From Serratia marcescens (GTDB taxonomy: Bacteria; Pseudomonadota; Gammaproteobacteria; Enterobacterales; Enterobacteriaceae): a stretch of DNA of 64,000 nt. A model generated the notes under the pieces. That model was not told where the DNA came from. It saw only the letters and a program-made list of their open reading frames with translations, and did no database searches. The DNA lies in assembly GCF_006715005.1 (NCBI RefSeq), contig NZ_VFMJ01000001.1, positions 4,898,001 through 4,962,000 on the forward strand, given 5' to 3'. Below, piece after piece: positions 30,987 through 37,315 of this stretch (positions are counted from its first letter, which is position 1; each line of letters opens with the position of its first letter). The position numbers and the translations under genes are program-made.

Positions 30987-31313
30987 TTATGCCGCGACTT
31001 GCACGATGCCGTCGACCACCCGGCTGGCGAAGCTGGCGACGGAACGGCTGTCATCTTCCAGACAGTGACCGTCGTACAGGCGGAAATGCTGTTTCTTCAG
31101 CGGGCTGGCGACCCACAGTTCGCCCTGATGCTCGGCGATCAGCCCGCGTGACAGCACGCTGGCCTGGGCGAACGGGTCGATATTGCTGATGGCGAACACC
31201 TGTTCGTCGGCATAGGGGCGGAACACCGCCACCTGCCGATCGCCGATCAGGGCACATACGCCGGTGCCGGGCAGAATGTCGGCGACGGGACAAACGGTAA
31301 TCCACTGGCTCAT
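30987..31313 (-). CDS. nirD: Nitrite reductase (NADH) small subunit
   Basis: The 108-residue protein has a Rieske-like fold (ALIGDRQVAVFRPYADEQVFAISNIDPF) without the iron-sulfur ligands, as is normal for NirD. It partners NirB in the cytoplasmic NADH-dependent reduction of nitrite to ammonium. It overlaps nirB by 4 bp. Confidence 0.97.
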   Translation of the reverse strand: MSQWITVCPVADILPGTGVCALIGDRQVAVFRPYADEQVFAISNIDPFAQASVLSRGLIAEHQGELWVASPLKKQHFRLYDGHCLEDDSRSVASFASRVVDGIVQVAA

Positions 31314-33859
31314 GCGTGGCTCTCCTCGGTATCGATCAGGGTGACGGGAATGCGCTCGTCAGGGCGCGCCGGGCGGTGCTGGTCGCGTTCGGCCACCACC
31401 TGCACGTTCGGATCGCGCAGCGGGCTGTTGATGAAGTGGGCGAAGCGCAGCTGCGTTTCCGGATGCTCGACGGTCTCTTTCCACTCGCAGACCACCGCGT
31501 CGCGCAGGCGGGCGATCTCCGCTTCCAGTTGGTCGTTGATGCCGAGCTTGTCGTCGACGATCACCTTGCGCAGGTAATCGATGCCGCCTTCCAGGCTCTC
31601 CAGCCACACCGAGGTGCGCTGCAGCTTATCGGCGGTGCGGATATAGAACATCATGAAACGGTCGAGGTAGCGCACCAGGGTCTCGCGATCGAGATCGGCG
31701 GCCAGCAGGTCGGCGTGGCGCGGTTTCATGCCGCCGTTGCCGCAGACGTACAGGTTCCAGCCGTTCTCGGTGGCGATGATACCGACGTCCTTGCCCTGCG
31801 CCTCGGCGCATTCACGGGTACAGCCCGAGACGCCGAACTTCATTTTGTGCGGGGTGCGGATGCCTTTGTAGCGATGTTCCAGCGTGACGCCGAAGCCGAC
31901 GCTGTCGCCGACGCCATAGCGGCACCAGGTGCTGCCGACGCAGGTTTTCGCCATGCGCAGCGCCTTGGCATACGCGTGGCCGGTTTCAAAGCCGGCGGCG
32001 AGCAGCTTGCTCCAGATGGCCGGCAGATCGTCTTTCTGCGCGCCGAACATGCCGATGCGCTGCGAGCCGGTCATTTTGGTGTAGAGGTTGTATTCCTTGG
32101 CGATCTGGCCGATGGCCAGCAGGCCGTCCGGGGTGATTTCGCCGCCGGCGGAACGTGGGATCACCGAGTAGGTGCCGTCTTTCTGGATATTGCCGAGGAA
32201 GTTGTCGTTGGTATCCTGCAGCGGTGTATGCTGCGGCTTGAGGATGTATTCGTTCCAGCACGAGGCCAGCAACGAGCCGACGGTCGGTTTACACACTTCG
32301 CAGCCGTAACCTTTGCCGTATTTGGCCAGCAATGCCTCGAACGACTTGATGCCTTCGACGCGGATCAGGTGGAACAGCTCCTGGCGTGAATAGGCGAAGT
32401 GTTCGCACAGGTGGTGGTTGACCTCGATGCCCTGCTTGCTCAGCTCGGCGTTCAACACCTGGGTGAGCAGCGGGATGCAGCCGCCGCAGCCGGTGCCGGC
32501 CTTGGTTTCGGCCTTCAGCGCCGCCACGGTGTGGCAGCCTTTGTTGACTGCCTGGATGATGTCGCCTTTGCTGACGTCGAAGCAGGAGCAGATCTGCGCG
32601 CTTTCCGGCAGCGAATCTACGCCGATGGCCGGTTTGCTGCCCGCATGGGCCGGCAGGATCAGGCCGTCCGGGTTTTCCGGTAGCTCGATGCCGTTCAACG
32701 CCAGCTGCAGCAGGTTGCCATAATCGCTGGTGTCGCCTACCAGCACCGCGCCGAGCAGGGTTTTATTGTCGGCGCTGACCACGATACGTTTGTAGACTTC
32801 TTTGCTTTCATCCAGATAAACGTAGCTGCGGGCGCCTTCGGTGCGGCCATGGGCATCGCCGATGCCGCCGACGTCCACGCCCAGCAGCTTCAGCTTGGCG
32901 CTCATGTCGGCGCCCTGGAAGCCGTTTTCGCGGTCCAGCAGGTGATCGGCGGCCACCTGCGCCATTTTGTACCCCGGCGCCACCAGGCCAAAGGTGCGAT
33001 CGCGCCAGGCGGCGCACTCACCGATGGCGTACACGTCCGGATCAGACGTTTGGCAGCTGTCGTTGATGGCGATGCCGCCGCGGCGGCCAACCTCCAGCCC
33101 GCACTGACGCGCCAGCTTGTCCTGGGCGCGGATGCCGGTGGAGAACACGATGAAATCCACTTCCAGCAGGCTACCGTCGGCGAAATGCATGGTTTTGCGC
33201 GCCGTGCCGCCGCCGTTGACGATCTCCTGGGTATTTTTGCCGGTGTGTACCTTGACGCCCATGCGCTCGATCTTGCGGCGCAGCTGGTCACCGCCCATCG
33301 GGTCGAGCTGTTCGGCCATCAGTACCGGAGCGAACTCGATCACGTGTGTTTCCACCCCCAGGCTTTTCAGCGCGCCGGCGGCTTCCAGCCCTAACAGCCC
33401 GCCGCCGACTACCGCACCGCGTTTGCTGCGGCGCGCGCAGGCTTCGATGGCGTTCAGGTCTTCGATGGTGCGGTAAACGAAGCAGTCCTGGCTATCCGAG
33501 CCCTTAATCGGCGGGATCCACGGATAGGAGCCGGTGGCCATGATCAGCTTGTCGTAATAGACGGTGCGACCGGTGTTGGAGTGGATGACCTTCTCGTCGC
33601 GATTGATGGTGATAGCGCGTTCGCCGACCAGTACCTTTACGCCGTGTTTTTCGTAAAAGCCTTCGCGCACCAGCGACAGCTCTTCGGCGGTGTGGTGCGA
33701 GAAGTAGGAGGAAAGGTGCACGCGATCGTAAGCGATGCGTGGCTCTTCGCAAAAGACGGTGATTTCGAACTGGTCTTTGTCTGCTTTATCCAACAGATCT
33801 TCGATGAACCGGTGGCCGACCATGCCATTGCCGACGACGGCAAGTTTGACTCTGCTCAT
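31310..33859 (-). CDS. nirB: Nitrite reductase (NADH) large subunit
   Basis: The 849-residue enzyme reduces nitrite to ammonium with NADH. Order: FAD/NAD pyridine oxidoreductase part (about 1-400; VVGNGMVGHRF, AVVGGGLLGLEAAGALKSLG), a BFD-like [2Fe-2S] region with CSCFDV and CGGC (about 420-490), and a sulfite/nitrite reductase part with siroheme/[4Fe-4S] cysteines in GCTRECAEAQ and CGNGG (about 610-720). I start at ATG 33857-33859 (MSRVKLAVVGNG), matching the family; 24 further upstream codons overlap the promoter. Control is by FNR and NarL/NarP (33918-33960). Confidence 0.98.
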   Translation of the reverse strand: MSRVKLAVVGNGMVGHRFIEDLLDKADKDQFEITVFCEEPRIAYDRVHLSSYFSHHTAEELSLVREGFYEKHGVKVLVGERAITINRDEKVIHSNTGRTVYYDKLIMATGSYPWIPPIKGSDSQDCFVYRTIEDLNAIEACARRSKRGAVVGGGLLGLEAAGALKSLGVETHVIEFAPVLMAEQLDPMGGDQLRRKIERMGVKVHTGKNTQEIVNGGGTARKTMHFADGSLLEVDFIVFSTGIRAQDKLARQCGLEVGRRGGIAINDSCQTSDPDVYAIGECAAWRDRTFGLVAPGYKMAQVAADHLLDRENGFQGADMSAKLKLLGVDVGGIGDAHGRTEGARSYVYLDESKEVYKRIVVSADNKTLLGAVLVGDTSDYGNLLQLALNGIELPENPDGLILPAHAGSKPAIGVDSLPESAQICSCFDVSKGDIIQAVNKGCHTVAALKAETKAGTGCGGCIPLLTQVLNAELSKQGIEVNHHLCEHFAYSRQELFHLIRVEGIKSFEALLAKYGKGYGCEVCKPTVGSLLASCWNEYILKPQHTPLQDTNDNFLGNIQKDGTYSVIPRSAGGEITPDGLLAIGQIAKEYNLYTKMTGSQRIGMFGAQKDDLPAIWSKLLAAGFETGHAYAKALRMAKTCVGSTWCRYGVGDSVGFGVTLEHRYKGIRTPHKMKFGVSGCTRECAEAQGKDVGIIATENGWNLYVCGNGGMKPRHADLLAADLDRETLVRYLDRFMMFYIRTADKLQRTSVWLESLEGGIDYLRKVIVDDKLGINDQLEAEIARLRDAVVCEWKETVEHPETQLRFAHFINSPLRDPNVQVVAERDQHRPARPDERIPVTLIDTEESHA

Positions 33860-33917
33860 TATTGCCTCAAAATTCTGGTTTCCTAGGCTTACCTTATCTC
33901 TCCCGATGAGCAATTTA

Positions 33918-33931
33918 TTGATGCAAATCAA
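33918..33931 (-). promoter_or_regulatory. FNR site of the nirB promoter
   Basis: TTGAT-GCAA-ATCAA is a perfect FNR consensus. A TAAGGT -10 element (33891-33896, minus strand) lies at the distance expected if this site is centred at -41.5, giving a transcript start near 33883 and a 24-nt leader. This repeats the known E. coli nirB layout. Confidence 0.92.
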
Positions 33932-33944
33932 TCACACCCCCATA

Positions 33945-33960
33945 TACCTCTAACGTGGTA
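33945..33960 (-). promoter_or_regulatory. NarL/NarP 7-2-7 site of the nirB promoter
   Basis: Read on the minus strand: TACCACG-TT-AGAGGTA. The second heptamer matches the AKRRGTA consensus fully, the first has two mismatches to TACYYMT. Its centre is 28 bp from the FNR centre, so it falls at -69.5, the position known in E. coli nirB. Confidence 0.85.
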
Positions 33961-34040
33961 TATAAATGATTTTTCACGTTTTTTGATAAGTTGCGGATTT
34001 TATTCATCTTTAGCTGAAGCGAGTCAGTTTGCATGTAAAT

Positions 34041-34056
34041 TACCCCTCAGGGAGTA
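34041..34056. promoter_or_regulatory. Second NarL/NarP 7-2-7 site, between nirB and codA
   Basis: TACCCCT-CA-GGGAGTA matches TACYYMT-N2-AKRRGTA with one mismatch, better than the nirB site. It is 96 bp from the first site. Its centre is about 73 bp upstream of the expected codA transcript start and about 165 bp upstream of that of nirB. A single GGGGGTA half site follows at 34063-34069. Confidence 0.65.
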
Positions 34057-34086
34057 AACGCAGGGGGTAGGCAGACAACGGCGACT

Positions 34087-34115
34087 TTGTCAGCGCGATC
34101 CGCTGCCAGTATGAT
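34087..34115 (+). promoter_or_regulatory. Sigma-70 promoter of codA
   Basis: TTGTCA (34087-34092) and TATGAT (34110-34115) are separated by 17 bp, near-consensus elements. The GTG start of codA is about 26 bp beyond the expected transcript start. Confidence 0.7.
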
Positions 34116-34147
34116 GAAGAAAACCAGCGCAACGGCAGAGGTGAAGG

Positions 34148-35431
34148 GTGGCGAAACGTCCATTGAAATTTATCGACAACCTGCGTTTAAGCGGGCATGA
34201 GGGATTGTGGCAACTGGCGATCGAGCAGGGGCGCATTGCGCATCTGGTACCGCAGCCGGAGGGGCAGGAGTGGCGCGGCGACGTGTTGGATGCGCAGGGC
34301 GGGCTGGCGTTGCCGGCGTTCGTCGAACCGCATATCCACCTGGATACCACGCAGACCGCCGGTCAGCCGGCCTGGAACCAGTCCGGCACGCTGTTCGAGG
34401 GCATTGAGCGCTGGGCCGAACGCAAAGCGCTGCTGACTCATGAAGACGTCAAACAGCGCGCCTGGCAAACGCTTAAGTGGCAGATCGCTAACGGCGTGCA
34501 GTATGTGCGCACCCACGTCGACGTTTCCGATCCCACGCTGACCGCGCTGCGTGCCATGCTGGAGGTTAAGCAGGAGGTGGCGCCCTGGGTGACGCTGCAG
34601 ATCGTCGCCTTCCCGCAGGAGGGGATCCTTTCCTACCCCAACGGCAAAGCGCTGCTTGAAGAGGCGCTGCGGCTGGGCGCCGACGTGGTGGGCGCCATTC
34701 CGCACTTCGAATTCACCCGCGAATACGGCGTGGAGTCGCTGCATAAGGCGTTCGCGCTGGCGCAAAAATACGATCGGCTGGTGGACGTGCACTGCGATGA
34801 AATCGACGACGAGCAATCGCGCTTCGTCGAGACCGTGGCGGCGCTGGCGCTGAAGCTGGAGATGGGGGCGAAAGTCACCGCCAGCCACACCACGGCGATG
34901 CACTCTTACAATGGCGCTTACGCCTCGCGGCTGTTCCGCCTGTTGAAAATGTCCGGCATCAACTTCGTCGCCAATCCGCTGGTGAACATTCACCTGCAGG
35001 GGCGTTTCGACAGTTACCCGAAACGGCGCGGCGTGACGCGGGTGAAGGAGATGCTGGAGGCGGAGATCAACGTCTGTTTCGGCCACGACGACGTGTTCGA
35101 TCCCTGGTACCCGCTCGGCACCGCCAACATGCTGCAGGTGCTGCATATGGGGCTGCACGTGTGCCAGCTGATGGGCTATGGCCAAATCGACGATGGGCTG
35201 AAGTTGATCACCCACCACAGCGCACGCACCCTTAACCTGAGCGACTACGGCCTGGCGGCCGGCAACAGCGCCAACCTGGTGATCCTGCCGGCGGAAAGCG
35301 GCTTCGACGCGGTGCGCCGCCAGACGCCGGTGCGTTATTCGATTCGCCAGGGGGCAGTGATCGCCGAAACGCGGCCGGCGGAAACTACGCTGCGTTTACA
35401 GCAGGATGAGACGGTGGATTTTCGGCGTTAG
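34148..35431 (+). CDS. codA: Cytosine deaminase
   Basis: The 427-residue amidohydrolase converts cytosine to uracil and ammonia. It is very like E. coli Cod[16 protein letters not shown] (HIH at 62-64 as metal ligands), the HCDEIDDEQ active-site segment, [15 protein letters not shown] and [19 protein letters not shown]. The start is a GTG at 34148 with AGAGG 6 nt upstream; no ATG fits. codB, the cytosine permease normally just upstream in E. coli, is absent here. The gene diverges from nirB and its tail overlaps chpB by 4 bp. Confidence 0.95.
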
Positions 35432-35778
35432 TCGATGATTGCCTGAAGCCGCGCCAGCGCGTCGGCGATGACTTCGCCAGGGGCACGTTCAATGAATTGC
35501 GCGCTGCGCCCGGCCAGATCCATCATGCGAACCTGGTTGATCAAGATGACACCCTGCGTTGCGGTGCCGCTCCCGCTCAGGCTGACGGTGAAACCCGCTG
35601 TACGGGCAAAATTAGCCCCTTGCGAAATAGGGGCGACCAGCACCATGCCCAGCGCATTAAACTCACGGGGGGAGAGCACCAGTGCCGGACGAAAGTCGCC
35701 TTGCTGCTCACGGCCAACCACGGGATTCAGGCTGACCCGGATAAGATCTCCGCGCTGAAAAACGGGGCGCTTCACCAT
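35428..35778 (-). CDS. chpB: MazF/PemK-family endoribonuclease toxin, ChpB-like
   Basis: The 116-residue product begins [27 protein letters not shown] and has [23 protein letters not shown] and [10 protein letters not shown], close to E. coli ChpB as I recall it. MazF-family toxins cut mRNA at short motifs. The conserved RGD, RPALVLS and QVR blocks are intact, so the toxin looks functional. It overlaps the antitoxin by 7 bp. The symbol is by similarity, because E. coli chpSB sits elsewhere. Confidence 0.9.
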
Positions 35779-36020
35779 ACTTCTTTCCCCGCCGGCGGCA
35801 TGTGTTCCCAGTTGTCGTCTGCGGCGGCCGGCGCTTCACCGTCGCAGCCATCGAGCAATTGCTGCAGTGAATAGCGTTTCTTAACCGGCTTAATGACCAA
35901 CGCTCCATCGATGACCTGCATGTCCATTTCCTGACCTACCTGTAGTTCCAGCTCGTTCATTAGCGCTGAGGGCACCAGCATTCCCGCGCTGTTGCCCCAT
36001 TTTTTGATAAAGACTTTCAT
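35772..36020 (-). CDS. chpS: MazE-family antitoxin, ChpS-like
   Basis: The 82-residue protein has an N-terminal AbrB/MazE swapped-hairpin domain (MKVFIKKWGNSAGMLVPSAL) and a C-terminal acidic tail ([12 protein letters not shown]) that should fill the toxin active site. I start at ATG 36018-36020, preceded by GAGAGGG; the open frame runs much further upstream through the promoter and tsgA but is not coding there. It is first in the operon. Confidence 0.9.
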   Translation of the reverse strand: MKVFIKKWGNSAGMLVPSALMNELELQVGQEMDMQVIDGALVIKPVKKRYSLQQLLDGCDGEAPAAADDNWEHMPPAGKEVW

Positions 36021-36035
36021 GAGCAATCCCTCTCC

Positions 36036-36072
36036 ATTGTTCATGTATAAACAATGTATAATTAAGTGTGAA
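36036..36072 (-). promoter_or_regulatory. Promoter and operator of the chpSB-like operon
   Basis: On the minus strand TTCACA (36067-36072) and TATACA (36044-36049) are 17 bp apart. An inverted repeat ATTGTT-N8-AACAAT (36036-36055) covers the -10, and ATGTATA is repeated directly at 36043 and 36054. This fits autorepression by the antitoxin. Confidence 0.6.
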
Positions 36073-36082
36073 AAATGTACAT

Positions 36083-36109
36083 AAAAAAGGGCGCCTTGCG
36101 GGCGCCCTT
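36083..36109 (-). terminator. Rho-independent terminator of tsgA
   Basis: AAGGGCGCC (36087-36095) and GGCGCCCTT (36101-36109) form a 9-bp stem with a 5-nt loop, followed on the minus strand by a run of Ts. It lies 22 bp past the tsgA stop and just ahead of the chpSB promoter. Confidence 0.9.
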
Positions 36110-36130
36110 GATGTATTTGATGCGAAGAAA

Positions 36131-37315
36131 TCAGTGCGTCACGTGACCGTGGCTGCGGTGCTTGGTCACGAAGCCCAGCAGCAGACACATCACAAACACC
36201 GCCAGGTACAGGCCGTTGGCGGTGGTCAGCGCCGCATGCGCGCCGCCTTTCGCCACGATAGGACCGGTGACCACGAAGGTCAGCATGGTGCCGATGGTGC
36301 CGCAGGTCAGGATAAAGTTGACCAGTTTCGGCGAGGAAGCCTTGGTCTGCAGCGAGCCGAGGGTGATCAGCGTGGTGTAGATGGCGCTGGAAACGAAGCC
36401 CAGGGCCATAATGTAGTAGCCGAGGTGCTCCGGATTGTCGGTGCTGACGAACAGGTACATCGCGCCGGTAGCCAGTGCGGCCAGCACGGTAACGATGCGC
36501 TGCAGATCGAAGAAGCGCAGGATGAAGCTGAACACCCACATGCCGACCATATAAGAGGTCCAGAAGTCGCTCACCAGCTTACCGGCCTGGCCGATGTCCA
36601 TATTGAACGACTTGGTGGCGTACTCCGGCACCCACTGAATGAAGCCCAGCTGGCCGAGGATGTAGCACAGCGCGGCGATCGACAGGAACAGCACGCCGAT
36701 GCCCCATTTTTCTTTCTCGACCGGTTGACCGGCATCAGTGCCTTTCTTGCCCAGCACCGGGAATTCGGAGCACAGGGTCAGCACGAAGATCCCCACGTAC
36801 AGCAGGCCGATGCAGGCATAAACCCAGTACCAGCCGATATGGCGGGCCAGCAGCATCGCAGCGACGATCGGGAAGATCATCCCGGCCATGCTGAAGAAGG
36901 AGTCGGTGAACAACAGGCGTGAACCGCGCTGGCGGCCGGCATACATGTGGGTGATCAGGAAGGTGCCGATCGACATGGTGATACCGCTCACCACGCCGAG
37001 GATAAACATGCACAGCGAGAACATGGTCAGGCTCTTGCCGAGCATCAGCCCTGCGACCGCCAGCACCATCAGGACAAAGCCGAAGATCAGCTGACGCTTC
37101 AGCGGGATGATTTCCATCAGCCAGGCATTGAGGAAGATCGAAATCAAAATACCGGCGTTGAGGAAAGTAAAGGTGTTACTCATGCTGGAAACCGGCAGAT
37201 TAAAGTACTCTGCAATGTTTCCCATCACCATCCCTGTGACGATCACTAAAGCACCGGTCAGCGCGTAAGAAAAGAAGCTGATCCAGGTAAGCCGTATGCG
37301 GTTACTGTCATTCAT
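36131..37315 (-). CDS. tsgA: MFS transporter TsgA
   Basis: The 394-residue inner-membrane protein of the major facilitator superfamily has about 12 hydrophobic segments and is highly similar to E. coli TsgA ([42 protein letters not shown] region). Its substrate is not firmly known. I start at ATG 37313-37315 ([14 protein letters not shown]), 15 codons inside the longest frame, to match the family. In E. coli it lies directly beside nirB; here codA and chpSB separate them. Confidence 0.95.

Follow-up and report, generated by a model that had tools for sequence, protein, structure and literature searches.

The 288-bp gap between the divergent nirB and codA genes of Serratia marcescens carries two predicted NarL/NarP-type sites, and the one farther from nirB, a 7-2-7 palindrome centred at -165.5 from the nirB start, would belong mainly to the nirB promoter, where it would act as a second NarL-P and/or NarP-P site in a two-site plan resembling that of narG. 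This reading, drawn from comparison of sequences, is held at slightly better than even confidence. The palindrome is counted as a far nirB site on account of its conservation, its 96-bp spacing from the near Nar site, a single telling arrangement in another genome (G084), the presence of the regulators in the genome, and the precedent of narG.

The window, i.e., the whole 64-kb stretch of DNA that was analysed (G000:C1:4898001-4962000), lies within a 5.57-Mb S. marcescens genome, in which nirB runs leftward and codA rightward from the gap. Starting from the nirB side, the gap contains an FNR site, the near Nar 7-2-7 site, a conserved block, the palindrome, and the presumed codA promoter (Table 1). 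The FNR site is taken to lie at -41.5, the position listed for FNR at nirB of E. coli in the excerpted text of PMC3688515, which sets the nirB start at 33883, the near Nar site at -69.5, and the palindrome at -165.5. Farther to the right of codA, the window contains tsgA, confirmed by its NCBIfam model. Between codA and tsgA, the minus strand carries what we take, by eye, to be a PemK/MazF-type toxin and its antitoxin (35428-35778 and the 3' part of 35772-36539). Judged by codA, the closest named loci among the best 80 of at least 583 relatives come from Serratia nevei, S. ureilytica, and S. marcescens. An origin of the region as a plasmid-borne piece was considered and set aside, as no match on plasmids was found.

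Table 1. Features of the nirB-codA region, in coordinates of the window
Feature	Positions	Strand	Details
nirB	31310..33859	-	Nitrite reductase large subunit, 849 aa; ATG at 33859; NCBIfam NF011565, 1795 bits against a cut-off of 883
FNR site of nirB	33918..33931		TTGATGCAAATCAA; at -41.5; direct reading and comparison across the genus
Near nirB NarL/NarP site	33945..33960		TACCTCTAACGTGGTA; at -69.5; 2 mismatches; offset from the FNR site as in E. coli K-12
Conserved block	33987..34005		TAAGTTGCGGATTTTATTC; about -104 to -122 of nirB; candidate architectural (IHF/Fis) element
Predicted second NarL/NarP-type 7-2-7 palindrome	34041..34056		TACCCCTCAGGGAGTA (TACCCCT-CA-GGGAGTA); centre 34048.5; direct sequence reading
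Possible third heptamer	34063..34069		GGGGGTA; same direction as the right arm of the palindrome
Presumed codA sigma-70 promoter	34087..34115	+	TTGTCA-17-TATGAT; 10/12 consensus matches; TATGAT in 26/26 genus genomes
codA	34148..35431	+	Cytosine deaminase, 427 aa; GTG start; NCBIfam NF006685, 863 bits against a cut-off of 483

The palindrome is present in the sequence exactly as the original prediction gave it. When scored against the NarL/NarP consensus TACYYMT-N2-AKRRGTA, it shows a single mismatch, at the innermost base of the right heptamer (7/7 matches on the left and 6/7 on the right), and is indeed nearer to the consensus than the near nirB Nar site (one versus two mismatches), as had been claimed. 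Inverted heptamers 2 bp apart are the 7-2-7 arrangement attributed to NarL/NarP sites in the excerpted texts of PMC4549865 and PMC2718512, the latter of which names nirB as one of four genes with a reported site of this type. The 64-kb window contains just one match to the motif with no more than one mismatch, against 0.03 expected, and 3 of 100 shuffled sequences reach that number. Chance alone yields two or three such strings per megabase, and the chance of finding one in the 288-bp gap is, by our own arithmetic, roughly one in a thousand. Across the whole genome, the motif has 11 matches at this threshold versus 17 for a reversed-pattern control, and 7 of the 10 other matches fall within ORFs (by a crude choice of ORFs); the score was accordingly rejected as proof by itself. 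Because motif strings are not rare genome-wide, it is conservation, rather than the score, that makes the case for the palindrome.

Thirty genomes of the genus were searched, 26 of which have codA, with nirB adjoining it in all 26. The searches of the other four genomes, all of them small, gave no match to codA, nirB, or NarL/NarP; lacking a nirB match as well, these genomes are of no use as a case of nirB without codA. An aligned comparison finds the palindrome at the same position in all 26 genomes and intact, as a 7-2-7 site with 0 to 2 mismatches, in 25 of them, the exception being locus L014, in which one base is gone from the right arm. On a tree of codA and nirB, the number of Fitch changes per column is 1.31 in the 16-bp site and 5.05 in 40 flanking columns (Mann-Whitney p=5e-7, with columns treated as independent). 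The ends of the heptamers are nearly invariant (one change in the three TAC columns and none in the three GTA columns), and the 25 intact sites, which represent 13 different strings, fit the consensus in 24 to 25 cases at each of positions 1 to 6 and 11 to 16. The innermost heptamer bases fit it poorly, in 14 of the 25 sites at position 7 and in one at position 10. This pattern resembles that of a NarL/NarP site that is maintained but less constrained at its inner bases, and on these comparative grounds the palindrome is accepted here as a predicted functional site of the NarL/NarP type. A search with a double-site pattern recovered 12 of the 30 genus genomes and 2 of 295 family genomes, both from the window's own genus; these are undercounts, as the pattern demands at position 7 of both sites a T that is absent in many species.

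Candidate regulators are encoded in the same genome, namely a NarP match (68%) and a second match (44%) that adjoins narX; the NarX equivalog scores 902 bits against a cut-off of 578. The queries used were NarP and NarX, so the assignment of the second match as NarL is based on its place beside narX. Two NarP/NarL matches were found in 26 of the 30 genus genomes, and the remaining four are those that also have no codA or nirB match. The narP gene adjoins a gene for a NarQ-like sensor (34% to NarX) at G000:C1:656674-659078, and the stop reported within this NarQ-like match apparently just terminates an open frame of 556 aa.

The spacing of the palindrome points to nirB more than to codA. In all 26 genus genomes it lies 96 bp from the near nirB Nar site, whereas its distance to the codA -10 hexamer is 59 bp in 3 genomes, 60 bp in 10, and 61 bp in 13, which implies five or six independent length changes. 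This contrast is modest, since the sequence on the nirB side is itself conserved over much of its length; nor is the spacing on the codA side free, given its range of only 2 bp within the genus and the 59 to 60 bp also seen in loci L229 to L231. These three loci, all from a sister genus (g102), and L233 from genome G084 are the four loci outside the genus that hold a copy of the site, which is intact in L230 and L231 and decayed in L229. These copies lie 96 bp (L229, L230, and L233) or 95 bp (L231) from the nirB Nar site, so that in the g102 loci the spacing is kept on both sides. The G084 locus, the only genome to combine the site with an intervening codB, has codB between nirB and codA; its site still lies 96 bp from the nirB Nar site and is 87 bp from the -10 hexamer of an unrelated codB promoter. 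The PurR operator found upstream of codB in E. coli, AAGCAATCGTTTTCGT, occurs there as an identical copy. This placement of codB, represented in G084 by locus L061, was also seen in locus L054 (genome G323) and in L140 of Hafnia alvei, the PurR operator of codB in G323 being weaker (4 mismatches). No codB separates nirB from codA in Serratia, and g102 has both arrangements.

The distribution of the site outside Serratia is patchy. Of six nirB loci in g102, two have it intact, one has a decayed copy, and three have none; two of the latter, L227 and L232, keep the codA promoter. It is likewise absent from L057, L058, and L071, which represent two other near genera, and this patchiness indicates that the site is gained or lost readily. 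It also appears dispensable over longer times, as nirB of E. coli has no far site and only two of the six g102 loci have an intact one. Among 80 family loci outside the genus (chosen from 134 genomes with a nirB match, often one per genus), a second site at the palindrome position was seen in 1 of the 37 with codA within 300 bp of nirB and in 1 of the 5 with codA further off. The 38 family loci without codA in the stretch include four with a Nar-type site (no more than two mismatches) located 130 to 260 bp from nirB: L119 and L120 have it in place of the usual -69.5 site, about 45 bp further upstream, and in L084 and L096, two-mismatch strings lie further up from nirB. These four codA-less loci indicate that the distance between a nirB promoter and its Nar site can differ. 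A best nirB Nar site about 45 bp further upstream was observed in three lineages (L119, L120, and L124, with 0, 1, and 3 mismatches, respectively).

When loci are taken instead from the best 80 of at least 583 named relatives, the site is present in 7 of the 48 that have nirB upstream of codA with no codB detected, all 7 of them Serratia sensu stricto; no site with up to two mismatches was found in the named loci of S. rubidaea or of the sampled Yersinia, Rahnella, Pantoea, Enterobacter, and other genera. Conservation in relatives that keep codA beside nirB, which had been put forward as a test, was thus seen within Serratia and fails in most of the sampled genera. In codBA loci whose upstream 2.5 kb contain no nirB, no site with up to two mismatches was found within 350 bp upstream of codB (0 of 27), and under the same limits none was found in the four codA loci for which that upstream stretch shows neither nirB nor codB. 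These counts, the 96-bp spacing, and the G084 case argue against placement for the control of codA as the leading reading, which the original prediction had favoured; its alternative, a far site for nirB at -165, fits better, with the spacing to the nirB Nar site kept even in G084.

Other elements of the nirB promoter are conserved to various degrees. The near Nar site occupies -69.5, the position of the NarL/NarP site at nirB of E. coli; it is weaker in the genus (2 to 3 mismatches in 26 of 26 genomes) than in the family, where 51 of 80 loci have 0 to 1. The conserved block, found at an equal distance from nirB, has 0 to 1 mismatches in Yersinia-type loci and 3 to 5 in several other genera, whose loci with weak copies include those both with and without codA in the stretch. 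This block is possibly bound by IHF or Fis. The scans used consensus strings for IHF, Fis, and PurR. Between the two Nar sites, no IHF match was found at up to one mismatch; the best has two, and the scan of E. coli nirB did no better. One of the two-mismatch IHF matches, AATCCGCAACTTA on the minus strand, falls inside the conserved block. The longer stretch 33967-34028 (TGATTTTT...TTGATAAGTTGCGGATTTTATTC-CTTTAGCTGAA), upstream of nirB, is better conserved than its surroundings and is an IHF/Fis candidate; its core is common to Yersinia-type loci at an equal distance from nirB and is weakly discernible in several codA-less loci.

On the opposite side of the palindrome, the near-consensus sigma-70 promoter that had been predicted for codA is present and is the better of two promoter matches in 33600-34500, against 0.4 expected from shuffled sequences. 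The statement that the palindrome lies about 73 bp upstream of this promoter holds for the distance from its centre to the presumed codA start (about 34122, placing the centre at about -73.5) and does not hold for the hexamers, which lie about 61 bp (-10) and about 38 bp (-35) away. Beyond the palindrome by 4 to 6 bp, 18 of the 26 genomes have a possible third heptamer within one mismatch of AKRRGTA; it is the best of 12 offsets tried, with p=0.043 in the column test, and its presence on the codA side is suggestive only. No codB adjoins Serratia codA, the best relative in the same genome being 31% identical, and a PurR operator was rejected for codA, as the best match has 6 mismatches.

These features leave some room for a role of the site at codA. 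A bidirectional nitrate switch is a tentative idea, possible at well below even confidence: Serratia codA, having neither codB nor a recognizable PurR operator, would have been brought into the NarL/NarP regulon by sharing a site with nirB, and nitrate or nitrite would thereby set the release of both nitrite-derived and cytosine-derived ammonia. Shared divergent control, with NarL/NarP bound at the site raising nirB and either raising or lowering codA and thereby tuning ammonia release from cytosine, is rated as unlikely. The site does lie between two conserved divergent promoters, the possible third heptamer extends towards codA in 18 of 26 genomes, the spacing between the site and the codA -10 is confined to 59 to 61 bp even when L229 to L231 are included, and the lack of a codB partner and of a PurR operator makes new control conceivable. 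Every observation that favours nirB weighs against it, as do the persistence of the codA promoter in L227 and L232 without the site and the lack of the site in 41 of the 48 named loci (again from the best 80 of at least 583) in which nirB lies upstream of codA and codB is missing. Control of both genes keeps what probability it has because the G084 arrangement is a single case, the codA promoter is conserved with only 2 bases of slack, the third heptamer may be real, and the site is readily gained and lost.

Regulation of codA alone is improbable: the site is suitably located, at about -73.5 of a good and conserved promoter and with 59 to 61 bp to its -10 in 26 of 26 genomes, but it is the spacing to nirB that is fixed, and that is kept in G084 despite the intervening codB, while none of the 27 codBA loci away from nirB has the site. 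Least probable of all, and very much so, is that the palindrome serves some other regulator, or matches the motif by chance and is conserved for a different reason. The lack of genome-wide enrichment (11 versus 17 matches), the location of most other matches inside ORFs, and the poor fit of the innermost bases speak for this; yet the frozen positions are the TAC and GTA heptamer ends, 12 of the 14 motif positions fit in 24 to 25 of the 25 sites, the adjacent promoter is of a kind with known NarL/NarP control, and the 26 genomes that have nirB and codA also have the Nar regulators, with no match to any of these in the other four.

For the preferred reading, a far nirB site, the following course of events may be envisaged. 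In anaerobic cells exposed to nitrate or nitrite, both the near and the far site would be filled by NarL-P or NarP-P, and the DNA between the two sites would be bent, possibly with IHF or Fis bound at the conserved block around -113, allowing the two dimers to help each other. The 96 bp between the sites correspond to about nine helical turns, close to a whole number. The cooperating Nar dimers would then raise the activation of nirB by FNR at -41.5. Such a two-site, narG-like plan would have been acquired separately in the Serratia lineage.

The nirB promoter is a model case of an oxygen sensor and nitrate sensors acting at one promoter, and an added, precisely spaced Nar site would show, in nature, a simple nitrate promoter growing into a two-site one like that of narG. 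Sister genomes include some with the site, some without it, and some with a decayed copy. If codA were affected too, pyrimidine salvage would be tied to nitrate respiration. A Nar site at nirB is already known; the second site at a fixed spacing appears to be new and, among the genomes compared, is confined to Serratia and its close relatives. No report of NarL/NarP control of codA, or of a second nirB Nar site in Serratia, was found in the open-access literature searched.

Compared to the codBA operon of E. coli, which encodes the same enzyme and has the PurR operator upstream of codB, Serratia codA has no codB, no PurR operator with fewer than 6 mismatches, and a different promoter. The nirB promoters of the two organisms share the FNR site and the near Nar site at the same mutual offset. 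However, nirB of E. coli K-12 has tsgA upstream, where Serratia has codA; its near Nar site has no mismatches, versus 2 to 3 in Serratia (26 of 26 genomes); and no second Nar site with up to three mismatches is found between nirB and tsgA, whereas Serratia has the far palindrome. A further parallel is narG of E. coli, whose full induction, according to the excerpted text of PMC4549865, needs NarL at -89 and -195 in addition to FNR and IHF. By this analogy, involvement of IHF at Serratia nirB is only a guess. The same excerpt describes narG as having no 7-2-7 sites, whereas Serratia nirB has two, 96 bp apart. Like narG, Serratia nirB has two separated NarL-type regions, here predicted ones, upstream of the FNR site, and the spacing between them is fixed (96 bp in 26 of 26 genomes).
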